Shown one piece after another: positions 22,403 to 33,868 of a DNA stretch of 36,115 bases. Under the pieces are notes generated by a model. The model saw only the letters and a program-made list of their open reading frames with translations. It was not told where the DNA came from and did no database searches. The position numbers were made by a program, and so were the translations under genes. The DNA is from a virus: positions 1 to 36,115 of the IMG/VR virus record IMGVR_UViG_3300034980_000568. One strand, 5' to 3'. Positions within the stretch are counted from its first letter, which is position 1, and each line of letters starts with the position of its first letter.

Positions 22403-25400
22403 TTGGGTGGCAAAGAAGATTGGATAGGGCGCCAGGAATCCGCTGGAAATAAGAATACTGCCGGCTGGGGTAAAGAGCACTACGACAGCTTTAATACAAG
22501 CTTGCAGGGCGTCGGACCAGCAGCTAGCAGATATAACAATGCCGCGGCAGCATACGATCAGGCGATGGCCAAGGCATATAACGGCTCAGAGAATTATGAT
22601 TCCGCCGATCTACTAAGCGATTCGTTTCTGAAGGTCAAGGTCGACCGCAAATATGAGGATATCGGCGAGCGCTCTGCCAATGTTAAAAATAGCATGGCGG
22701 AGATCGAAGATCTCAGCGCTACAGTAAAGTCCATAGGCCCAACAGACGATCTGTCCTCCAAAATAGCTGATATTGAAGCCTTCATGGTCGCGAATACTCC
22801 CGACCTCTCAATAGAAATGGCACAATGGTGCGAAGGCGCCATTCAACAACTGCGAGAACTCAGAGCTGCCAAGACAGAACTTAATAAGAATGTTAATGAC
22901 ATCATTGGATACAATAATAAGCTAAAAAAGGCCACCGATGCCGATAAGAAAGCCATCGATGCGGGAACCGCCTCCGCCGAGGCAGCCGCGGCTCAGGCAG
23001 CAGGAAGAGGCCTCAACGATGTCGCCGATGCCGTCCGCGCCAGTCAAGCTGCAACAACAGCCAAACGCCTTGCAGCGCTATCCGGCACCGGCAGCGTCTT
23101 TTCGGCTGCTGATTTACAAAATAATATCGGCGCCACTTTTCGCGAACAATGTATATTGCAGGCAAACATAATAAACCTAATGAGAATTAAGAGAAATGTG
23201 ATAGAAAGTGGCACTCCCCGAAGTATTCCTTACGCATCGGATGGCAGAAATAAGGCCCTCGATATTGAAGGGGAGCCATACGGGTTTATGAACAAATTGA
23301 CGCAGCCATCGACAACTGCAGCATTATTTACCCTTCCAAATACTATTCTGTCACAATTGCAGCCTTATATCAGGCTTTATAAGATTGGCTATGATGAAGA
23401 CGGCAAGGATGCGGTTGAAATACCAGTTGAATTTCCATCTCACTTTGGTCAAGAAACATCAAATATAACATCTCTTTTGAGAAATTCCAAAAGAAGAGGC
23501 CATGGCGTGGGATTAAAAAGTTTTAACTTTAGCTACGACGGATCCGATCCGTTTGCGGTAAAAAAGAGCATTAAAGCATCATTGGAAATTTTTGCTGCTT
23601 CTTTTGAAGAACTAATGCAAGATAGAGGTGGATATGCATACTCAGATCTTGCGCTAAAGACCGGAACGAGTCAAATGAGGTCCAAAGTAAAAGTGCGAAG
23701 CTCGTCCACTGAAGTTGATGACAATCTATCTAAACTGAATTTTAGATTGAAAGCTGTGGTGGGTTATTCTTATCCTAAATCTCTTGTTATACCGTCTGCC
23801 TCTGGATTAAGCGCCGAACAAGTAAAGAAGGCTATCTATAACAGTTTCGTTACACTAAACCTCACTCCAACGATCCACGAATTTAATTTTGATGATACGG
23901 GCAGGGTGGTTTTCAGAATTAACTATTTAGCATATATTGAAGACTATTTCGATCAAGCTTATTTTAACATTTTTTCTGATATTAGGGCTACAAAAAATAC
24001 TTTTCGACGAAGAATGATGGCAAAAGCGTTTAAGTATAACTGCCAAATAGATAAACTTAAAGTGCTAAAAGAACAAGAGAAAAAAGAAACCACGTTAGAG
24101 ATTAAAAACTCAATGCAGACGCTGCTCGGTGGCCTTTTTGAAGATGATAAAATATATGGGATTAATATTCCTTACGATGATCTCATGGAGGCGGCTCTAA
24201 ATCCCGCCTACGATCTTACAGCAGTAAAAGTGTTAAAAGAGCCTCCTCCCAGCGTGGCTAGCCCCGAAGGGGCAGTCGCAGAAGCGTCCGCCAATCCAGG
24301 CCCGGCTAGCGGCGCCGGCGCAGATCCGGCCGCCATCGATATCAAAAAGGCGAACCCCACGCAGAATTCCAACAGATACGAACAAATAGCTTTCTTTTAC
24401 TTAGATGACCTTATCGACATTGTATTGGGGAACATTGAGGAGTCCCTCTCCGAACAAGGATACCAAAAGGTGATCGCGGATCTCTTACAAGAGGGAATTC
24501 TGCCAGTTACGATAGGTTCTGCAGAAAAATTGAAGATCGCAAAGAACGAGGAGGCGATTAAAAGACTTAGGTTGGTACTGGGGCCCATCGAAATTAGAGA
24601 TCCTATGAATGCAGGCTCCTATACCCATGCATCATTGGGGGACATCCCAATATCAGCTAAATATTTCGTAGAATGGCTGACAGATAAAGTCTTGGCGAAA
24701 GGAAGGATATACTATTCTCTGAGTAAATTTATAAACGATTTCGTTAAGAACTATCTAAGAAACTTTTTGAATGATGATAAGTGTTATGGCCAGGCGACCA
24801 AACAGAGGATAACATTTTATAATGCCAACATAACCTCTTATCCGGATCATGGAGACTCCACGGTCGATGAAATAAGCAAACTTATTGCTGAGGGCGTGAC
24901 CACTTCTGATGGTTATTCTGGCCGCCTAAATATAAATATGGTTGAGAGTTCTGGGCTATTAAATGTCATGGGTAAAAGAGATAGCCCCGTTTCTATGATA
25001 GAGGGTCAAGAAATGAATTACATGGTGTTTTTTGCCGGCAGATCTCACCCGAGAGATAAACAACTGGGCGATGCGTTTGAAGATTCTCGCCGCGGCGTTT
25101 TTCATTATGTGTTAGGGAGGGATTCGGGAATTGTTAAAAACATCAAACTTGATCGCACAACAATGACCGGTTTAAAAGAGCTTCGCTTTGAACAGGAGGG
25201 CTTCGATGGCTTAGAACAATTACGTGAGGTCTACGATGTGCACATCGACACATTTGCTATGCCCACAGTGTTCCCGGGAACATATATTTTTGTTGATCCT
25301 CGAGGCTTTGCGCCCGAAACAAACCCCTACGATCCCTCCGCGGCAAATGGCGGCCCCATCGGCACAGAGGGAATTGAGCTTACGAAATACGGCATCGGCG

Positions 25401-25675
25401 GATATTTCATGGTAACCAAAGCTGAAACGAGACTCAGAGAAGGCTTCACGGAGACGTTAATTAGCGCAAAATGGGTGGCCGGCGTGGAATCAAACCCCAC
25501 CGAAGCCGGCACTGCCACGACAGAAATTTCTTCCAATCCTGCAGAAACGAAGGGCACTATAAAATGCACGATACCAAAAAGCGATGTAAATCCCGCCAAA
25601 AGAGGCATCCAACCGTCAGTGCCGCCTGATTCAGTTGGAACGAACCCCAAAGACAGCCCGGATCCTAACATCTAA
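22403..25675 (+). CDS. Large baseplate hub-type structural protein (putative)
   Basis: This 1090-residue protein starts at TTG with AGGGGTG upstream. Residues about 1-260 are helical and Ala-rich (coiled coil with AAAQAAGRGLNDVADAV). The region at 290-560 is mixed alpha/beta (LYKIGYDEDGKDAVEIPVEF, FNFSYDGSDPFAVKKSI). A low-complexity Ala/Pro/Gly linker lies near 610-650 (ANPGPASGAGADPAA). The C-terminal 350 residues contain GVFHYVLGRDSGIVKNIKLD, FEQEGFDGLEQLREVYDVHI and PGTYIFVDPRGFAP, then GIGGYFMVTKAETRL. These end blocks look like a tube- or hub-type beta domain. Position and size suggest a central hub or spike carrier. No lysozyme catalytic motif was recognised. Confidence 0.6.
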   Translation: MGGKEDWIGRQESAGNKNTAGWGKEHYDSFNTSLQGVGPAASRYNNAAAAYDQAMAKAYNGSENYDSADLLSDSFLKVKVDRKYEDIGERSANVKNSMAEIEDLSATVKSIGPTDDLSSKIADIEAFMVANTPDLSIEMAQWCEGAIQQLRELRAAKTELNKNVNDIIGYNNKLKKATDADKKAIDAGTASAEAAAAQAAGRGLNDVADAVRASQAATTAKRLAALSGTGSVFSAADLQNNIGATFREQCILQANIINLMRIKRNVIESGTPRSIPYASDGRNKALDIEGEPYGFMNKLTQPSTTAALFTLPNTILSQLQPYIRLYKIGYDEDGKDAVEIPVEFPSHFGQETSNITSLLRNSKRRGHGVGLKSFNFSYDGSDPFAVKKSIKASLEIFAASFEELMQDRGGYAYSDLALKTGTSQMRSKVKVRSSSTEVDDNLSKLNFRLKAVVGYSYPKSLVIPSASGLSAEQVKKAIYNSFVTLNLTPTIHEFNFDDTGRVVFRINYLAYIEDYFDQAYFNIFSDIRATKNTFRRRMMAKAFKYNCQIDKLKVLKEQEKKETTLEIKNSMQTLLGGLFEDDKIYGINIPYDDLMEAALNPAYDLTAVKVLKEPPPSVASPEGAVAEASANPGPASGAGADPAAIDIKKANPTQNSNRYEQIAFFYLDDLIDIVLGNIEESLSEQGYQKVIADLLQEGILPVTIGSAEKLKIAKNEEAIKRLRLVLGPIEIRDPMNAGSYTHASLGDIPISAKYFVEWLTDKVLAKGRIYYSLSKFINDFVKNYLRNFLNDDKCYGQATKQRITFYNANITSYPDHGDSTVDEISKLIAEGVTTSDGYSGRLNINMVESSGLLNVMGKRDSPVSMIEGQEMNYMVFFAGRSHPRDKQLGDAFEDSRRGVFHYVLGRDSGIVKNIKLDRTTMTGLKELRFEQEGFDGLEQLREVYDVHIDTFAMPTVFPGTYIFVDPRGFAPETNPYDPSAANGGPIGTEGIELTKYGIGGYFMVTKAETRLREGFTETLISAKWVAGVESNPTEAGTATTEISSNPAETKGTIKCTIPKSDVNPAKRGIQPSVPPDSVGTNPKDSPDPNI

Positions 25676-25710: not shown

Positions 25711-26949
25711 ATGTCATACTTTTTTAAGGAAAACTCAATCGACGGCGCCAAAGATACTTACGAGAAGTCTCAGGTTTATAAACATCACCTCCAGGCGCCC
25801 ATGGCGGCACATAGCAACCTAATCGATTTTCAAAATGCAGAAAAATATTTGTATGGCAGAGTCTCTTATCGCTACGTCCCGATAGAGGTGGATTTAGTTA
25901 ATATACCACTGGTCACGCTAGCCGGTGGAACTCAAACTTCTAATATTCAAACACTCAGTTTCGTCGCTGATGCATTCTCTGATTTAAGGGCCCTGTTTGC
26001 GAAAAAATCGATGGATCCGGCATTTGATAAAGGTCACCCCCACCTGTCTACTCTAGACGCCGCTCAGGGATATGTGAGCCCACAAACCCTTTATAGTAAA
26101 CACTATGTTAGGTTACAAAACAGCATGATCCAGAGCTGCCGTGAAAATAATATTAGATTTGCCAATTTTGAGCAATTCTTAAGAAAAGCGCTGCCGATTA
26201 TCAAGCGCGCCACAAAAACGATTCCTTTTACTTATCCGGGGTTTATAAAAAGCAAGCATTGCGATGTACGAGTATCGGGTCTTGTGATTGAATTGGTGGC
26301 GGGCAAAGACTTTAACAATGATCGAGATAAGATAAATGATTTCGTAAAATCTCAAAATTGGCCCTTTTACTTAAATGCATGTGCAGCATGCGGCTTTTCC
26401 GTAGACGCATCAAACCCATGGCGCCTTGTTGCAGATATTGGCTCCTCGACAATGGTTGATTACGCACAGCGAGCAGTGGGCTGCGGTTTTAACACGACCC
26501 AAGAAATATTATCTTTTGGATATAAAGCTGCTCACATTCAATATTATGAAACGTTTGCAAACTCTTTTTTAATGCTCTATAATGCACTGAAACAAGAGTA
26601 TACCGACCCATATATGTGCTCCGACTTCACGCTAAGAAGCAGAGTGATAAAGCCTCCCGATTATTCTTTGAGTCAAATAACTTCTCACTATTTAACTGAT
26701 TTAAAGCTTTTTGATTTATATATGGAAATTCGAATTATAGAGGATGAAAACACCTATAGCGAAGGCGAAATAAAGCGCTTGAAGACCCGCGCACTGTCAA
26801 TTGCTCGATCGAACGGCATCGGCGCCGCCCTGAACGCCTTCGAAATTTTTGTTGGCCAAACATATGATTACAGTGGCTCCTTGACAGATCAGATACACCG
26901 TGTTAAGATAGTACAAGAAAGGGAGAAGGATGTACTTTCAGACACTTGA
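25711..26949 (+). CDS. Conserved phage protein of unknown function, probably virion-associated
   Basis: This 412-residue protein has FVKSQNWPFYLNACAACGFS and NPWRLVADIGSSTMVDYA in the middle, then a helical stretch (YKAAHIQYYETFANSFLMLY). Similar WPFYLNAC...PWRLVAD blocks occur in uncharacterised proteins beside tail genes of aquatic T4-like phages, from memory and not from a search. Four Cys residues (including CAAC) could bind metal. It follows the hub-type gene by 35 nt with AGGAG upstream, and its 3' end overlaps the DNA polymerase by 20 nt, linking structural and replication blocks. No function can be assigned. Confidence 0.55.
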   Translation: MSYFFKENSIDGAKDTYEKSQVYKHHLQAPMAAHSNLIDFQNAEKYLYGRVSYRYVPIEVDLVNIPLVTLAGGTQTSNIQTLSFVADAFSDLRALFAKKSMDPAFDKGHPHLSTLDAAQGYVSPQTLYSKHYVRLQNSMIQSCRENNIRFANFEQFLRKALPIIKRATKTIPFTYPGFIKSKHCDVRVSGLVIELVAGKDFNNDRDKINDFVKSQNWPFYLNACAACGFSVDASNPWRLVADIGSSTMVDYAQRAVGCGFNTTQEILSFGYKAAHIQYYETFANSFLMLYNALKQEYTDPYMCSDFTLRSRVIKPPDYSLSQITSHYLTDLKLFDLYMEIRIIEDENTYSEGEIKRLKTRALSIARSNGIGAALNAFEIFVGQTYDYSGSLTDQIHRVKIVQEREKDVLSDT

Positions 26950-28129
26950 CGATAAATCGGAATGTGTTGGTGTATATACGGATGGTAAGCTTCATTTTGA
27001 CGATATTCCGTCAAATTTGAAATATACGTGGAAATACACAGGCTCGATTAAAGAGGAAGACATTAAGTATGCCTGGATAGTAGCCCAAGGAGCAACACTT
27101 AGTGAAGTATGTCCGAAACATTTAAACCTCCGATTAGAAAAAAGCACAAAGAAAATGAATGCGTTCTATAAGTCTTTTAAGCTCGCAAAAATAAATTTAT
27201 TAGATCATTGCGTATTTGATTTAATCCCTCAAGATTCTTTAAAAGAGTTCTGTGAAATAAAAAATCAGATTACTCAACATGTATTAGAGAATTATGAGAT
27301 TCCCGCCAATTATGATTTCCTCAGCGGGGCCCACAAGATGGTTTATGACATCCGCGAACAAAAGGTTAATGCAGATATTCAGAATTGTAGAGGCGCCATG
27401 ACAAGAACAAATTTTAGACTTGGGATGAAAAAGATCATGCAAGGGTCGAAACACATTAATTATAATATTTTTGGAACCTCGACCGGTCGACTATCGACGG
27501 CGCCCCACTCTTTCCCGATTCTGACCATGAAAAAGGATTTTCGAAAATGTATAAAGCCCCATAACGATTGGTTTATTTCGTTCGACTATAACGGCGCCGA
27601 GGTACGGACTGTGCTGGCTCTCCTGGGCCTTCCCCAGCCAGAGGAAGATGTCCACCAATGGAACATGAAAAACATTTTTGATAAAAAATCTATTTCTCGG
27701 GCCCCGACCAGAGATGAAGCAAAGGTGCTATTTTTCGGCTGGTTATATAATCCGGACTCCGAGGTCATTAAGGGTAGTCTTTACGACAGGGATAAAATAG
27801 TCGATGAGCATTACTTTGATGGATATGTGCATACAATTTTTAATAGAAAAATAAAAGTTGACGAAAGAAGGGCCCTAAGTTATACTATCCAGAGTACAAC
27901 TTCGGATCTGGTGATAGAGAGAGCCATGGCACTCAAGAAAATGTTAAAAGGAAGGAAATCTTTTATATCTCACATAATGCATGATGAGGTGGTTATAGAT
28001 CTGTCTGACGAGGACAGATCGCTCCTATTGCAAGCAAAAGAAGAATTCGCACAGAACAGGCTCGGTACTTATAAAGTGAATGTGTCCGCCGGCCAAAATT
28101 ACTTTGATATGGAAGAGCTTAAAATATGA
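26930..28129 (+). CDS. Short family A DNA polymerase (no exonuclease domain)
   Basis: This 399-residue protein carries the family A catalytic core. GTSTGRLST (182-190) precedes motif A FISFDYNGAEVR, with Asp219 and Glu224 at the catalytic spacing. Motif B RDEAKVLFFGWLY has Arg261, Lys265 and Phe269, the last at the position of E. coli Pol I Tyr762. RRALSYTIQSTTSDLVIERA follows, and motif C is HDEVVID (351-357). T7 polymerase has 704 residues and Klenow 605; here only about 210 residues precede motif A and no exonuclease motif is visible. The start is ATG 26930 with AGGGAGAAGG upstream. It overlaps the previous gene and the next (ATGA). T4-like phages normally use a family B enzyme. Confidence 0.88.
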   Translation: MYFQTLDDKSECVGVYTDGKLHFDDIPSNLKYTWKYTGSIKEEDIKYAWIVAQGATLSEVCPKHLNLRLEKSTKKMNAFYKSFKLAKINLLDHCVFDLIPQDSLKEFCEIKNQITQHVLENYEIPANYDFLSGAHKMVYDIREQKVNADIQNCRGAMTRTNFRLGMKKIMQGSKHINYNIFGTSTGRLSTAPHSFPILTMKKDFRKCIKPHNDWFISFDYNGAEVRTVLALLGLPQPEEDVHQWNMKNIFDKKSISRAPTRDEAKVLFFGWLYNPDSEVIKGSLYDRDKIVDEHYFDGYVHTIFNRKIKVDERRALSYTIQSTTSDLVIERAMALKKMLKGRKSFISHIMHDEVVIDLSDEDRSLLLQAKEEFAQNRLGTYKVNVSAGQNYFDMEELKI

Positions 28130-28992
28130 TATCAATTATTGGCATTGGGAATGCCGGCTCAGAGATTGCTAACAAATTCTCTGAAATTCCGCAATATGAC
28201 ATTTATGTGTTGAACAGTAATGTCAAAAAAAATACAAAAAACAAATTTAAGTTGAAAAGCTACCCAACACCAGAGGAGTGTGAACAAAACATACCAAATC
28301 TCAATAAGTTCTTTTCCAATCTAAAGAATCGTACACAAGTGTTTATTATGGGGGCGTCACACAGTTCAAATTACACTCTTGGTATTCTAGAACAGATTAG
28401 AGATCGCGATATCGATGTTTTTTATATTAAGCCGGACACTACTCTGTTATCTGGCATTCCCCGACTAGTCGAAAATGCCACGTTTGGAATATTGCAGGAA
28501 TATGCTCGCTCCGGTCTTTTCCGTAGTTTTACTGTTTTTTCTAATGAGGCGATTGAGGACGCCCACCCGAATATTAATTTAAAATCATATTATGATACGC
28601 TGAACGAAACAATTTTCTCTACTGTACATTATTTGAATTATTTTGAGAACACAGAACCACATATTGGTAATATGGCAAGACCTAGTGAAATCAGCAAGAT
28701 ACGCACTGCGGGCATGTTAAATATGAAAAATCTTGAAGAAAAATGGCTTTATGAGCTTGACGTTCCCCGTGATCTGTGTTATTATATGTGTATAAATACA
28801 GAAAGATTAGAGAAAGAACCAGGCCTACATAAGCGCTTGGTCGACATTTTAAAGAAGAAGCCTAAGAATGCTTTTAGGAAAATTTCGTATTCAATTTACG
28901 AGACACCTTTACGAGACTTTGGGTTCTGCGTTGCCCACACTAACGTAGTACAAAACAACCAAACGACCCTTGACGAGCTTGATCAAGGGTGA
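28126..28992 (+). CDS. FtsZ/tubulin-like protein with degenerate nucleotide loop (tentative)
   Basis: This 288-residue protein starts inside the polymerase stop (ATGA) and follows the tubulin/FtsZ layout. MISIIGIGNAGSEIANKF (1-18) resembles the first strand and T1 loop of FtsZ. VFIMGASHSSN (72-82) sits where FtsZ has its GGGTGTG loop, but most glycines are lost. A strand and proline (DVFYIKP), an Ala-preceded helix and SFTVFSNEAIEDA (135-146) mirror the following FtsZ segments up to the conserved Asn, then YYDTLNETIFSTVHYL matches helix 6-7. PHIGNMARPSEISKIRTAG (178-196) matches the INVDFADV loop region. GTP binding may be lost. The alternative is a Rossmann protein, since GxGxxG also fits. 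Its place beside polymerase and SSB suggests a role in replication or intracellular organisation. Confidence 0.5.
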   Translation: MISIIGIGNAGSEIANKFSEIPQYDIYVLNSNVKKNTKNKFKLKSYPTPEECEQNIPNLNKFFSNLKNRTQVFIMGASHSSNYTLGILEQIRDRDIDVFYIKPDTTLLSGIPRLVENATFGILQEYARSGLFRSFTVFSNEAIEDAHPNINLKSYYDTLNETIFSTVHYLNYFENTEPHIGNMARPSEISKIRTAGMLNMKNLEEKWLYELDVPRDLCYYMCINTERLEKEPGLHKRLVDILKKKPKNAFRKISYSIYETPLRDFGFCVAHTNVVQNNQTTLDELDQG

Positions 28993-29000
28993 CACATTAG

Positions 29001-29021
29001 ATATCAAGGAAAGCTTGATAT
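29001..29021. repeat. Inverted repeat overlapping the SSB promoter
   Basis: ATATCAAG (29001-29008) and CTTGATAT (29014-29021) are perfect inverted copies around GAAAG. The right arm overlaps the extended -10 box at 29016-29024, which is the position of a repressor operator. It could alternatively be a coincidental hairpin. Confidence 0.5.
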
Positions 29022-29024
29022 ACT
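29016..29024 (+). promoter_or_regulatory. Extended -10 promoter for the ssDNA-binding protein
   Basis: TGATATACT is an extended -10 box (TGn then TATACT) 27 nt before the ATG at 29051. No good -35 box is visible. The identical nine bases occur in the promoter upstream of the helicase (34865-34873), and both are followed by TTAC or TTTAC. Confidence 0.55.
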
Positions 29025-29050
29025 TTACAAACAAACAGGAGAAAAAACTA

Positions 29051-29821
29051 ATGTCAATCAACATGGAACTAATGAGAAAGAAACTCGCCACCTTGCGCGG
29101 CGAGGGAAAAGATGGGGACTCCATCTTCTTCAAACCCGCAGAGGGAGACCAAGATATCCGGATCGTACCGACCAATGACGGCGATCCACTTAAGGAGCTA
29201 TATTTCCACTATAATGTGGGCGAGCACCGCGGCGGTATCTTGTGCCCAAAGCGCAATTATAGTGAACGATGCCCGATCTGCGATTTTGCATCATCAGTAT
29301 GGAAGGATAGTACGGCGAACAACGACGAAGAAGGCAAGAAGCTGGCAAAGTCACTGTTTGTGCGTGCACGCTACTTCTCACCGGTGGTACTTCGCGGCCG
29401 CGAGGCCGAGGGCATCAAGGTATATGGTTATGGCAAGAAGGCGTATGAACTTCTTCTCGGCTACATTCTTGATCCCGAATACGGCGACGTCACATCCGCC
29501 ACAGAGGGTACAGATATCACACTTACTTATACCAAGCCCACCACCCCGGGGGCATATCCACAGACAAACATGAAGATGAGACGAAACACTTCCGCACTTT
29601 TGGAAGATAGTGAGGCGATCCCTGCCCTCCTCGATCATATGCCTGACTTTTCGTCTCTCTTTGAAAGACGCACACCAGAGGAAATCGATTCTATTTTAGA
29701 CGAGCAACTGGTAGGCCCAAATTCAGCTGAGGCAATTTCTAATGAGACTACTGCGTATGGTAAAAGTAGCTCAGCCAGCGATGTGGACCGCGCTTTTAAC
29801 GAGCTTATGAATAGCAACTAG
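29051..29821 (+). CDS. 32: ssDNA-binding protein (T4 gp32-like)
   Basis: The start is set at ATG 29051 (257 residues) because AGGAG lies 9 nt upstream. An in-frame ATG at 28970 is inside the previous gene and upstream of the promoter. The N-terminus (MSINMELMRKKLATLRG) is the basic segment used for cooperative binding in gp32. HRGGILCPKRNYSERCPICD (59-78) supplies a likely zinc site, with Cys65, Cys74 and Cys77 and a His before them. VYGYGKKAYELL follows in the OB-fold region. The C-terminus (SDVDRAFNELMNSN) is short and only mildly acidic, compared with the longer acidic tail of T4 gp32 (301 residues). It coats single-stranded DNA for replication and recombination. Confidence 0.85.
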   Translation: MSINMELMRKKLATLRGEGKDGDSIFFKPAEGDQDIRIVPTNDGDPLKELYFHYNVGEHRGGILCPKRNYSERCPICDFASSVWKDSTANNDEEGKKLAKSLFVRARYFSPVVLRGREAEGIKVYGYGKKAYELLLGYILDPEYGDVTSATEGTDITLTYTKPTTPGAYPQTNMKMRRNTSALLEDSEAIPALLDHMPDFSSLFERRTPEEIDSILDEQLVGPNSAEAISNETTAYGKSSSASDVDRAFNELMNSN

Positions 29822-29833
29822 CGTTTGTCCGTG

Positions 29834-29868
29834 AAAAACCGATGGCAGAGCGGGGTAAATACTCTGCC
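29834..29868 (+). repeat. Direct repeat copy 1 (terminator-bearing)
   Basis: AAAAACCGATGGCAGAGCGG followed by GGTAAATACTCTGCC is an imperfect copy of 30168-30201. The two copies flank the small membrane-protein gene. Confidence 0.6.
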
Positions 29869-29878
29869 ACAATTTTCT
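29843..29878 (+). terminator. Terminator after the ssDNA-binding protein gene
   Basis: TGGCAGAG (29843-29850) pairs with CTCTGCCA (29862-29869) around an 11-nt loop. The tail (CAATTTTCT) is T-poor, so termination may be partial. Confidence 0.6.
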
Positions 29879-29899
29879 ATAAACAAAAAGGAGAATGTT

Positions 29900-30166
29900 A
29901 TGGAATGGTTAAAATCCCTATGGGCCCGATGGAAGGTTCAAGTTAGCATAGTGGGAGGCGTACTTATCGTCGCCACCGCATATGGGACCTGCTCAGTCGA
30001 ACCGCCCGCGGTATCTGACAACGGTGCAACAGGGGCTTCCCCGGCTATCAATGAGATCGTCGAGGTTTCTGCCACCACAGAGACAACCACCACTGGTGAT
30101 ACCACCACTGGAACCGCCACCACAACTGGCGATACCACAGGTACCACCACCACTACAAACGAGTAG
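29900..30166 (+). CDS. Small membrane-anchored Thr/Gly-rich protein
   Basis: The start is set at ATG 29900 (88 residues) with AAGGAG 6 nt upstream; an upstream in-frame ATG at 29825 would run through the terminator hairpin. A Trp/Lys/Arg-rich N-terminus (MEWLKSLWARWKVQ) is followed by one hydrophobic segment (SIVGGVLIVATAYGT, residues 16-30) and a Cys at 31. The rest is Ser/Thr/Asp-rich, with TTTGDTTTGT-type repeats. This predicts a single-pass inner-membrane protein with a disordered tail in the periplasm. The sequence before Cys31 is not a good lipobox. The gene is bounded by two copies of the same terminator, like an inserted accessory cassette. The function is unknown; envelope modification or exclusion are possibilities. 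Confidence 0.65.
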   Translation: MEWLKSLWARWKVQVSIVGGVLIVATAYGTCSVEPPAVSDNGATGASPAINEIVEVSATTETTTTGDTTTGTATTTGDTTGTTTTTNE

Positions 30167-30225: not shown

Positions 30226-31107
30226 ATGAAGCCATTATTTATGTGGGCCGGCGGTAAAACACGCCTGATCAAAAAATACAAAGAACAACATATCCTTCCA
30301 GACTCCTTTGATCGTTATATCGAACCCTTCCTTGGTGCCGGCGCGATGTTTATATGGGCATACACACAGAATCCCAATGCAACCTTCGTCCTGAACGATT
30401 CTAATGAATCTATTATGGCCATTTATACGGCTGTTAAAGAGGATTGCAGCGTTTTCATAGACCGTGTGGAGGATCTCTCAGTACAATATCTTCCACTTGA
30501 GAAGGCGGCAAGAAAGGCGTTCTACTATGATTTGAGAAGGCAGCATGCCTTTGATTACAAAAAGTGGTCATGCACCGATGAGGCGGCTACGTTATATTTC
30601 CTGATGAAAACAGGGTTCAACGGTATCTGGCAGCTTAATAAAAACACAGATGGTCGTTTTGGCACCCCCGCGGGCCTACTAAACCAGAAGGACAAAGTTT
30701 ACGACAAGGCAAACGTTTTAGAATGGGAAGAGGCTCTCAGGCGATGCATCCTCACCACTGGAGACTTCCGCGAGACGCTGAGCGCCGCCATCCCTAACTC
30801 ATATGTGTTCCTGGATCCTCCTTATCGCGGATCGTTCACACAGTATGGTGTTGATTTTGATGACGATTTACAAGAGTCTGTAATTAAGTTTTTAAATGAC
30901 TTGACAGCCAAGGGGGCACTTGTTATGATGTCTAATAGAGACATCGGGGATAACTTCTTCGAGTCTCGACAGGGCAATAATAAAATCATCTATTTTGATG
31001 TTACGTATACGGCAGGTCGTAGAAAGAAAAATGCCGATGGAACACATAGCGCCAAAAAGGCTAGAGAAATTCTAATGATAGGAGAAAAGAATGAATATTC
31101 AGACTAA
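30226..31107 (+). CDS. dam: DNA adenine methyltransferase (Dam / D12 class)
   Basis: This 293-residue protein is an N6-adenine methyltransferase. It has the N-terminal FMWAGGKTRLIKKY (residues 5-18), the S-adenosylmethionine loop IEPFLGAGAMF (32-42), the region FNGIWQLNKNTDGRFGTPAG (131-150), and the catalytic VFLDPPY (194-200). This order is that of the D12 class (Dam, DpnM, T4 Dam), most of which modify GATC. Length fits E. coli Dam (278). GATC and GGATCC are common in the window, so the genome does not avoid the site. It probably protects phage DNA from restriction or tags it; the target sequence is inferred. The GHKL ATPase gene overlaps its 3' end by 17 nt, pointing to joint expression. 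Confidence 0.9.
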   Translation: MKPLFMWAGGKTRLIKKYKEQHILPDSFDRYIEPFLGAGAMFIWAYTQNPNATFVLNDSNESIMAIYTAVKEDCSVFIDRVEDLSVQYLPLEKAARKAFYYDLRRQHAFDYKKWSCTDEAATLYFLMKTGFNGIWQLNKNTDGRFGTPAGLLNQKDKVYDKANVLEWEEALRRCILTTGDFRETLSAAIPNSYVFLDPPYRGSFTQYGVDFDDDLQESVIKFLNDLTAKGALVMMSNRDIGDNFFESRQGNNKIIYFDVTYTAGRRKKNADGTHSAKKAREILMIGEKNEYSD

Positions 31108-32704
31108 TATAAGAGAGAGAGAGGAAGTGCGCTTCGACACCACCCCGAATGCATCACAGCTGTATAACGTCGTGCTTCAGGGTTTTGGTTACTCTATGAA
31201 AGACGCCGTGTGCGATATCCAAGATAATTCAGTTGATGCCGGCGCAAAGAACGTTACTGTGGTGTTTGAGCAAGCCGCAGGCCAACAGAATAAAGAAACC
31301 GGCGGTGCGTATGTTCAAGCTATTTGGATTATTGATGATGGGTGCGGCATGAATAAAGAGCGCCTGCAAAAATCGTTCATTTTTTCTACAAAAGTTCCGC
31401 ATGCCGAAGGCTCTCTTGGGCATTTTGGAGCAGGAGGCTCGGCCGCATCTTTTTCTATTGCTGAAGATAAATATGTTCTCACAAAGGAGGCCAATGGCCA
31501 GCTATTGGTTGGAACTTTGAGCATAAACTCGTTCAATGAATCTGGTTCTTTTAAAGATACTGGAATGATGCGCGCAGCCAACGACACCGAAAAGGTCTTT
31601 TTTATGAAAGAACTAGGAATAAAAGAAAGTAATTTTGCTGGATGCCACGGTACCATAGTTGGGCTGACAAAGATTAACAAGAACCTAAACACAACAGCCC
31701 GGAAAGCTGCAACAGACTTACAAAAATACTGCGGCGAAGTTTATCATCAATATATATCTGAGGGTATCATCTTTAGAACAATTTTACGAAGGAATCACGA
31801 GGAGGATCTTATCAATGAAGTTGCCGCAGCCGACCCGCTCTTACATAATTATCCCGACAGTCTATCATACAAGCATTCAGAAAATCTTGAGTATGTAGAC
31901 TCGCAAGATAGAACTCATATTATCAATGTGCGCTATTCTATTCTAAACGCAACAGCGGGCAAAGGTGACTTAATTGAAAAGCAAGGAATTTATGTTAGCA
32001 GAAACAAGAGACAAATTGTCGCGCATTCAGCGCTCGGGGACTTGTGGAGAAAAAATTTGCAGACATGTCGTGCCGGCAGAATGGAAATCAATTTCCCAGA
32101 AAGCCTAAACGAAGACATGGGCCTAACTTCAATGAAAAACAAAGTCCGCCTAGATGAAGAGCTAAAGTCTTTTTTGAAACCCTATGTTAGTACCTTCAGA
32201 TCGAAGGTGACGAAGAGATCCACAACACCAAACAAGATCGCAAAAGAAATAGAGAAACAAGAAAAGGAGTCCGCCAAAAAGGTTGTCCAACATGGCGGTA
32301 CCCTGGGGGTGCCCGAGATCAGCGCTCCTGCTCCAACCGGTCGCCCAAACCCAGACGCCGGCCGCGGCTCAGATAAGAAAAAGCGCAAAAAGAAAGATCC
32401 AAATAATACTCGACGCCAATATGCAGATGTCAGCTTTGAGCACGTTAGTCCGAACATGCCCACCGATCACCCATGGTGGCATAAGGTCACAGACGATCTG
32501 ACTATCATTATTTGTATAAATGATGATCATCGGTTTGTTGTCGATCATTATACAGAAGGCACCGATGAGATGAAGACTGTGATTAGAAAATGGATGGTAG
32601 CAGATATACTCACTCAAATAGAATATCAAGATAATTCAACCAGCCGTTCTGTGATGGGTTCGTTTTATCGAAGAATCTCTGACATCCACAACTTGGGAAT
32701 ATAA
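31091..32704 (+). CDS. MORC/Hsp90-type GHKL ATPase
   Basis: This 537-residue protein opens with a GHKL ATPase domain. The N-box is CDIQDNSVDAGA (41-52), the G1 motif DDGCGM (82-87), and the lid motif GHFGAGGSAAS (110-120); GTIVGL lies further on. In this fold the catalytic residue is the Glu of ExxDN; here it is Asp42. The pattern resembles MORC, MutL and Hsp90 more than the type II topoisomerase subunit. Residues about 200-370 probably form the transducer domain (ending with QGIYVSRNKRQIV). A basic Lys/Arg linker follows (to about 435), then a C-terminal domain (FEHVSPNMPTDHPWWHKV). It overlaps the methylase gene by 17 nt, with AGGAG inside the methylase end. A DNA-clamping role is inferred. 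Confidence 0.75.
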   Translation: MNIQTNIREREEVRFDTTPNASQLYNVVLQGFGYSMKDAVCDIQDNSVDAGAKNVTVVFEQAAGQQNKETGGAYVQAIWIIDDGCGMNKERLQKSFIFSTKVPHAEGSLGHFGAGGSAASFSIAEDKYVLTKEANGQLLVGTLSINSFNESGSFKDTGMMRAANDTEKVFFMKELGIKESNFAGCHGTIVGLTKINKNLNTTARKAATDLQKYCGEVYHQYISEGIIFRTILRRNHEEDLINEVAAADPLLHNYPDSLSYKHSENLEYVDSQDRTHIINVRYSILNATAGKGDLIEKQGIYVSRNKRQIVAHSALGDLWRKNLQTCRAGRMEINFPESLNEDMGLTSMKNKVRLDEELKSFLKPYVSTFRSKVTKRSTTPNKIAKEIEKQEKESAKKVVQHGGTLGVPEISAPAPTGRPNPDAGRGSDKKKRKKKDPNNTRRQYADVSFEHVSPNMPTDHPWWHKVTDDLTIIICINDDHRFVVDHYTEGTDEMKTVIRKWMVADILTQIEYQDNSTSRSVMGSFYRRISDIHNLGI

Positions 32705-32716
32705 CAGGAGGAACCA

Positions 32717-33868
32717 ATGAGTAGAAAAACAAAAGAAATAAAGGCCGGCCGTGTCAACCTTAAGGATTTGATGAAGATCGTCAACAAGAAGGCCGGCCGA
32801 AACGTTGCCCATGATTTAACGGGCACAAACCCAACGTCGGTCAAGGAGTGGATCCCGACGGGATCCCGCTGGCTTGACTCTATTGTGTGCAAAGGGCAAG
32901 TAGCCGGAATACCAGTAGGTAAAGTAACAGAGATCGCCGGCCTTGAATCAACTGGAAAATCTTATATGGCCGCACAGATCGCCGCAAACGCCCAGAAACA
33001 GGGCAAGCTTATCGTTTACTTTGATTCCGAGTCTGCTATCGATCCAACCTTTTTGGAGCGCTCAGGATGCGATCTAGAGCGTTTAATGTATGTTCAGGCA
33101 TCATCTGTCGAGTTCGTGTTGGAAACGATTGAAGAGCTACTGGGTGCAACTGATGAACAATTAGTATTTATCTGGGACTCATTGGCATTTACGCCTTCTG
33201 TTTCGGATGTTGAGGGAGATTTCAACCCTCAGTCTTCGATGGCAGTGAAAGCCAGGATCTTAGCCAAGGGAATGTCGAAACTCGTAATTCCGATTGCAGA
33301 TAAGCAAGCAACATTTATTGTGCTAAATCAATTGAAAACTAATATCCCACAAGGGCCATTCGCACGCCAAATTGCAATGACGACGCCCTATATGACCCCG
33401 GGAGGCAAAGCGATGCATTATGCTTATTCACTCCGCATCTGGCTGACGGGCCGAAAGGCGAAATCCGCATTCATTGAGGATGATAAGGGCTTTCGTATCG
33501 GATCCGAGGTCAAGGTAAAGCTTGAGAAATCTCGGTTTGGAACACAAGGCAGAAACTGCGCCTTCCGGATCCTTTGGGGCACTGAGAACATAGGCATCAG
33601 GGACAAGGAAAGCTGGTTCGACGCGATCAAGGGTTCTGAATGTTTAACATCGGCCGGCGCATGGTATACCTTGAAGACATCTTCGGGTTATGAGAAAAAA
33701 TTCCAACCATCAAAGTGGACTGAGATAGTATCGTCCGATGAGGAGTTTAGAAATCACGTTATTGACATAATGGACGAAGAGATTGTCCAAAAGTTTGACA
33801 AGAGGGAGGGTGACGCTAGTTCTTATTATGAAGACCCAGAAGACCTATCAGTACCAATTAAGGAATAA
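32717..33868 (+). CDS. uvsX: UvsX/RecA-type recombinase
   Basis: This 383-residue protein catalyses strand exchange and supports recombination-dependent replication. It has Walker A GLESTGKS (75-82), the catalytic-side segment YFDSESAIDPTFLERSG (101-117), Walker B LVFIWDSL (149-156) with Asp154, and a DNA-binding loop region around residues 200-230 (LNQLKTNI, then TTPYMTPGGKAMHYA). Length matches T4 UvsX (391). The acidic C-terminus (about residues 345-383) is typical. AGGAGG precedes the ATG. It is followed at once by the 5'-3' exonuclease gene. No partner UvsY is visible in the window. Confidence 0.92.
   Translation: MSRKTKEIKAGRVNLKDLMKIVNKKAGRNVAHDLTGTNPTSVKEWIPTGSRWLDSIVCKGQVAGIPVGKVTEIAGLESTGKSYMAAQIAANAQKQGKLIVYFDSESAIDPTFLERSGCDLERLMYVQASSVEFVLETIEELLGATDEQLVFIWDSLAFTPSVSDVEGDFNPQSSMAVKARILAKGMSKLVIPIADKQATFIVLNQLKTNIPQGPFARQIAMTTPYMTPGGKAMHYAYSLRIWLTGRKAKSAFIEDDKGFRIGSEVKVKLEKSRFGTQGRNCAFRILWGTENIGIRDKESWFDAIKGSECLTSAGAWYTLKTSSGYEKKFQPSKWTEIVSSDEEFRNHVIDIMDEEIVQKFDKREGDASSYYEDPEDLSVPIKE

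Follow-up and report, generated by a model that had tools for sequence, protein, structure and literature searches.

The locus and its neighbours

The window, a 36,115-base uncultured virus record, runs from genes for a T4-type major capsid protein, tail sheath, tail tube and baseplate hub into replication genes, and its gene content is that of a contractile-tailed phage of the T4 superfamily. Within the replication block, between genes for a family A DNA polymerase (PolA) and a gp32-like single-strand DNA-binding protein (SSB), lies an open reading frame whose product we refer to as the degenerate protein (Table 1). Its ATG is embedded in an ATGA overlap with the polymerase stop at 28129. The SSB frame is listed from 28970, but its true start is probably an ATG near 29051. 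This gene order is strongly conserved, with PolA as the upstream neighbour at 190 of 207 testable loci and SSB as the downstream neighbour at all 220.

Table 1 Features of the replication block, of the degenerate protein and of the canonical tubulin gene in a related contig
Feature	Position	Strand	Remarks
Family A DNA polymerase (PolA)	26930..28129	+	Directly upstream of the degenerate tubulin gene
Degenerate protein, predicted tubulin fold	28126..28992	+	288 aa, ATG start
S1-T1-H1 (aa 2-16, ISIIGIGNAGSEIAN)	28129..28173	+	First nucleotide loop, partly kept; G8 invariant
T4 position (aa 76-82, GASHSSN)	28351..28371	+	Shorter loop in place of the GGGTGTG phosphate loop
S5 and start of T5 (aa 95-104)	28408..28437	+	P103 and D104 invariant
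S6 to N140 (aa 134-140)	28525..28545	+	N140 invariant (72/72)
Central helix H7 (aa 152-174)	28579..28647	+	Y156 (Y/F in 72/72), N160 (72/72)
T7 position (aa 178-191)	28657..28698	+	PHIGNMARPSE after H7; model has no H8
C-terminal tubulin-like domain (S7, hairpin strand, S8, H10, S9, S10), predicted	28699..28953	+	H9 missing
gp32-like SSB	28970..29821	+	Directly downstream; frame as listed
UvsX/RecA-like recombinase	32717..33868	+	Same replication block
Canonical FtsZ-like tubulin	L184:1303-2436		Contig IMGVR_UViG_3300025127_000013

Other genes of the block have features of their own. The polymerase is only 399 residues long and has hardly any relatives in phage records (four weak matches), and its exonuclease domain seems to be absent or located elsewhere. 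Upstream of it, 22403-25675 and 25711-26949 encode proteins of 1,090 and 412 residues, neither with a family match, which evolve fast (33-44% identity between relatives) yet keep their position. Right after SSB, 29825-30166 encodes a small protein, not assigned to any family, in which a single hydrophobic segment is accompanied by a long repeat tail rich in T and G. Between SSB and the recombinase there are also genes for a D12-class adenine methyltransferase (30226-31107) and an HATPase_c_3 MORC/Hsp90-like ATPase (31091-32704); both are absent from the same place in the relatives L018 and L275, and the two may be cargo with a role in methylation or defence.

A widespread family under purifying selection

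The degenerate protein has at least 543 relatives in uncultured viral contigs, plus further clades, and the phages that encode it are a widespread, uncultured group of large tailed phages. A tblastn search of 50,697 phage records returned no relative, and we found no published report of the family in the open-access literature. Neither this gene nor the canonical tubulin gene described below has a cellular relative in 84,980 prokaryote species genomes, and the search therefore gives no hint of the host. Both genes were likewise undetectable in the nearest cultured relatives by capsid (Flavobacterium phage immuto, Mel-JY01 and RM378), and patterns derived from Escherichia coli FtsZ found no match in the viral contigs.

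We aligned 165 distinct full-length relatives, which share 46-72% identity with the window protein; between members of the family, identity drops to 42%. The median dN/dS of the gene is approximately 0.07, indicating strong purifying selection. Together, the depth of this alignment, the low dN/dS and the fixed neighbour genes indicate that the motifs of the reading frame are more than chance.

A tubulin fold that sequence searches do not recognise

Searches of Pfam and PHROGs with the degenerate protein gave no significant match, the Pfam Tubulin profile (PF00091) does not recognise it, and neither the protein nor profiles of its family matched any PDB sequence significantly. Profile-profile comparison (hhalign) of the family with FtsZ, PhuZ and the canonical phage tubulin also remained below significance (E = 0.04-0.15, a deeper alignment included), and this check, which the sequence-only reading had suggested for FtsZ and PhuZ families, lent its tubulin proposal no support. 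The match to FtsZ was weak (E = 0.075), and its sole aligned stretch, S6-H6-H7, agrees with the register of the base contacts discussed below; the matches to PhuZ (E = 0.15 and 0.067) covered only S1-H1. The T1 loop of the degenerate protein aligned with T1 of PhuZ and of the canonical phage tubulin, again with weak scores. Since none of these comparisons is significant, the case for the fold rests on structure and residue mapping.

We built an AlphaFold2 model from 35 family sequences, which reached a pLDDT of 86.9 and a pTM of 0.87, although it is a single model from a moderately deep alignment. A Foldseek search of the PDB with this model gave 785 matches at E ≤ 1e-3, of which the best 50 were all TubZ, FtsZ or tubulin. 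The top match was TubZ (4ei7; E = 1e-12, TM = 0.65), and FtsZ structures (2vxy, 1fsz and 2r6r), with the same topology, reached a TM of up to 0.70. In a library of viral structures the best match was a phage FtsZ (A0A6J5RW92; E = 8e-13, TM = 0.71), and the first five matches were phage FtsZ/tubulin-like or unnamed proteins. The modelled elements follow the tubulin order, S1-H1-S2-S3-(short H3)-S4-H4-S5-H5-S6-H6-H7-S7-S8-H10-S9-S10, with H8 and H9 absent and a hairpin strand after S7, and they make up an N-terminal nucleotide domain, a central helix H7 and a C-terminal four-strand domain arranged as in the tubulin/FtsZ superfamily. On the strength of the model, we are nearly certain that the degenerate protein has the tubulin/FtsZ fold, and the tubulin/FtsZ-like identity that had been proposed from the letters alone is thus upheld by structure prediction and fold comparison.

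The same searches bear on whether the gene instead encodes an ordinary NAD(P)-binding Rossmann protein, for which the start of the chain, resembling GxGxxG, could be taken as a sign. When 30 family members were run against Pfam, the matches were mostly weak and of Rossmann type, none of them significant: F420_oxidored appeared in 7 of the 30 (best E = 0.039), as against one weak match to Tubulin (E = 0.1). The confident model, however, shows the central helix H7 and the C-terminal tubulin domain, and no Rossmann protein stands among the 50 best PDB matches; the first in the viral library, an epimerase (E = 1.6e-3, TM = 0.30), trails the best match there by nine orders of magnitude. The sequence-only reading had kept a Rossmann fold as a real alternative and had named a Rossmann match without any tubulin match as the outcome that would refute its own proposal; the opposite was obtained. 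A Rossmann identity is contradicted by the fold search and now very unlikely, and we give it hardly any weight.

The base pocket is kept and the phosphate machinery is lost

Motif conservation was counted in 72 non-redundant sequences (<85% identity), and residues were mapped onto tubulin and FtsZ by secondary structure and alignment, without superposition. The individual motifs picked out earlier all fall where the model would place them. The initial segment, ISIIGIGNAGSEIAN, occupies S1 (aa 2-7) and H1 (aa 8-16). The loop read as a degenerate counterpart of GGGTGTG is GASHSSN, between S4 (aa 69-75) and H4 (aa 79-89), for which the family consensus is G-[SA]-S-x-S-S-N, with G76 invariant (72/72) and S80 nearly so. 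The FtsZ-like order of strand-Pro, helix and strand-Asn corresponds to S5 (aa 95-102) followed by P103, a helix at aa 110-128, and S6 (aa 134-139) followed by N140. Finally, PHIGNMARPSE, suggested as a possible equivalent of INVDFADV, indeed follows H7 in the T7 position. There, G181 is invariant but no acid is (NxDxxD is lost), with E or D at position 188 in 63 of 72 sequences. The T4 signature GGGTG[TS]G is absent from the family, and its T3 has no glycine-rich loop.

The residues around S6 and H7 are preserved. We take N140, Y/F156 and N160 to be the positions of tubulin N206, Y224 and N228 and of E. coli FtsZ N165, F182 and N186, the residues that contact the guanine base in those proteins. 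The degenerate protein and the canonical phage tubulin (N222/Y239/N243) each contain a single conserved N...[YFW]xxx[ND] pattern at such spacing, and in both proteins it falls at the tubulin position. Composition alone would place a triad of this kind close to a given register with a probability of approximately 2%, so the triad supports the structural result and would be insufficient on its own.

The degenerate protein is likely to be a tubulin-fold pseudo-GTPase in which the base pocket is kept and the phosphate-binding and catalytic machinery is gone, the loss of GTPase activity being inferred; the motif analysis thereby supports the earlier description of a 'divergent or inactive member'. 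Because it fails the T4 signature, the T7 acid and PF00091, we do not file it as FtsZ, TubZ or PhuZ.

A second, canonical tubulin in the same phages

A Pfam Tubulin search of large related contigs revealed a second tubulin gene, encoding 378 residues and first found in a contig of 130,761 bases. Its product contains FVGVGGGGN (T1), AGGGGGTGSS (T4) and SFDSKD (T7, DxxD), scores above the Pfam Tubulin cut-off and has a match to FtsZ of known structure (E = 2.5e-10). The gene is present in at least 174 viral contigs, with identities of 89-100% for the best 80, and has a median dN/dS of 0.046. An AlphaFold2 model of this protein reached a pLDDT of only 42 (17 near-identical sequences), and only the order of strands and helices fits. 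The protein also has a conserved N-terminal extension of ~60 residues (NEFDFLPPAE...LLPENTAPSS), which is unusual for FtsZ.

Among 29 large contigs examined, all nine that span both sites carry both tubulin genes (G001, G011-G016, G021 and G026). The two lie on the same strand, 39-42 kb apart, with the canonical gene upstream of the degenerate one; in G012 (195,459 bases) the gene positions fit only with a circular or permuted genome. In contigs with a single tubulin gene, the expected place of the other, judged from coordinates, lies beyond the contig end. The nine contigs come from related viruses, some of them close, and are not nine independent events, so the co-occurrence partly reflects common descent. 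The window ends before the site of the canonical gene, and that its own genome carries one is inferred from relatives. The largest contigs (187-196 kb) suggest a genome size of ~190 kb.

The canonical gene follows a fused SbcD/SbcC-like gene and precedes terminase and portal, which places the virion-structure block between the two tubulin genes. The fused gene, directly upstream (L186:6810-10004), encodes 1,064 residues with metallophosphoesterase and SMC/SbcC domains, a single polypeptide with the functions of both gp47 and gp46. Between the two main clades the canonical tubulin is the most conserved of the genes compared, at 88% identity, followed by terminase and portal (69-79%), SSB and RecA (66-74%) and the degenerate tubulin (48-50%).

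The presence of a canonical tubulin matters for the idea that the degenerate protein forms filaments autonomously, as a divergent tubulin that binds GTP with an unusual T4 loop and polymerises without the canonical gene. The guanine-base triad and the glycines G8 (T1) and G76 are kept, and there are invariant residues in the elements that form both longitudinal faces in FtsZ and tubulin. Against this, the GGGTGTG and T3 glycine loops are gone, T7 has no invariant acid and H8 is not formed, and with a canonical tubulin encoded in the same genomes there is less need for the protein to act alone. We consider autonomous polymerisation unlikely, while keeping it among the possibilities.

A proposed two-part cytoskeleton

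The co-occurrence of the two genes suggests a two-part phage cytoskeleton. We prefer a reading, and give it an even chance, in which the degenerate protein serves the canonical phage tubulin filament as a partner or adaptor that does not hydrolyse GTP. Under this model, it may still bind guanine nucleotide through the base pocket, would lack the usual T4/T7 route of GTP hydrolysis, and would contact tubulin-like protofilaments through the faces that it has kept (H6/H7 start on one side, H7 end/H10 on the other), acting as a non-hydrolysing subunit, a cap or an adaptor; each of these steps is inferred. It might further link the canonical filament to replicating phage DNA or to the replisome, a tie that we propose because the gene sits between PolA and SSB. 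By analogy with PhuZ, such a two-tubulin cytoskeleton would position or organise replicating DNA. A role in organising replication, which the sequence-only reading had also raised, is plausible from gene context and has not been shown. The unequal evolution of the two proteins points to an adaptor or cap rather than to an obligate dimer of the α/β kind. Their partnership is itself inferred and not shown, the fact that the two genes are not adjacent speaks against it, and there is no direct evidence for interaction, polymerisation or nucleotide binding by the degenerate protein or for its lack of GTPase activity.

The same genomic context could be read without filaments. The degenerate protein might be a replisome protein that happens to have a tubulin fold, for example an accessory factor of the polymerase or SSB, as its place between them in an overlapping operon and a divergence like that of the polymerase would allow. 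However, Makarova and Koonin (PMC2875224) state that the tubulin-superfamily proteins characterised by then all form filaments, and a canonical tubulin co-occurs here, which leaves this account rather doubtful. A second proposal, also raised from the sequence, is that the protein acts as a decoy: it would bind the FtsZ of the host and block cell division, or redirect it, in the course of infection. A small tubulin-fold monomer without hydrolysis elements could, by inference, cap FtsZ protofilaments, and the fold match to FtsZ makes a decoy possible without supporting it directly; but the gene has a fixed place in the replication operon, flanked by PolA and SSB, and persists in a family whose members diverge to ~42% identity, which resembles core replication more than a host-takeover gene. 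We regard the decoy as improbable.

Returning to the partnership with the canonical tubulin, a more specific version, which we offer only tentatively as a possibility, is that the ultra-conserved GTPase tubulin and the non-hydrolysing tubulin of the replisome operon co-assemble asymmetrically, like the unequal α/β sites, and organise replication without a nucleus of the phiKZ type. Searches of five large contigs for phiKZ chimallin (gp54) found no match, which in the absence of a positive control is not proof that it is missing.

Comparison with known tubulin-like systems

TubZ of Bacillus plasmids (4ei7 and 2xka), the best structural match, is likewise a tubulin fold on an extrachromosomal DNA element, but shares 15% identity with the degenerate protein and is longer (382 residues in 4ei7, compared to 288). 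TubZ has intact GTPase loops and works with TubR and tubS. FtsZ has the base-binding asparagine and the aromatic/asparagine pair in the same register, whereas the degenerate protein has lost the T4 GGGTGTG, the T3 loop, the T7 acids, H8 and H9. PhuZ of the nucleus-forming jumbo phages is also a phage-encoded tubulin fold from large-genome myoviruses; unlike the degenerate protein, it retains a GGxGS-type T4, and phiKZ PhuZ is recognised by PF00091 (31.8 bits). The phages described here, in contrast to PhuZ phages, belong to the T4 superfamily by capsid and portal.

The canonical tubulin of the same phages shares lineage, superfamily and the N-Y-N base triad with the degenerate protein, but has GVGGGGN, GGGGGTGSS and FDSKD and passes the Pfam cut-off. 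Its only relative in phage records is gp138 of Bacillus phage G (JN638751 78686-79816; E = 4e-4), annotated as putative FtsZ-like and matching PF00091 at E = 4.7e-17. Highly diverged cellular families of the tubulin superfamily that coexist with canonical FtsZ in one genome have been described as FtsZl1 and FtsZl2; these keep T1 and T4, and in FtsZl1 the T6-H7 region and C-terminal domain are unrecognisable (PMC2875224). The degenerate protein, by contrast, retains S6-H7 and the C-terminal domain but has lost T4, and it is encoded by a phage.

Implications for phage cytoskeletons

Most of what is known of phage tubulins concerns nucleus-forming jumbo phages and one plasmid-prophage, each of which has been described with a single tubulin gene (PMC7950403). 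If our reading is true, phage cytoskeletons would also occur in a new and apparently common group, a T4-superfamily lineage of ~190 kb that has two tubulin-fold genes, of which one encodes a pseudo-GTPase invisible to sequence searches. The predictions are specific and cheap, since guanine-nucleotide binding, hydrolysis and co-assembly with the canonical partner can each be answered with yes or no. These phages would then offer a natural test of what a tubulin fold can do without hydrolysis.
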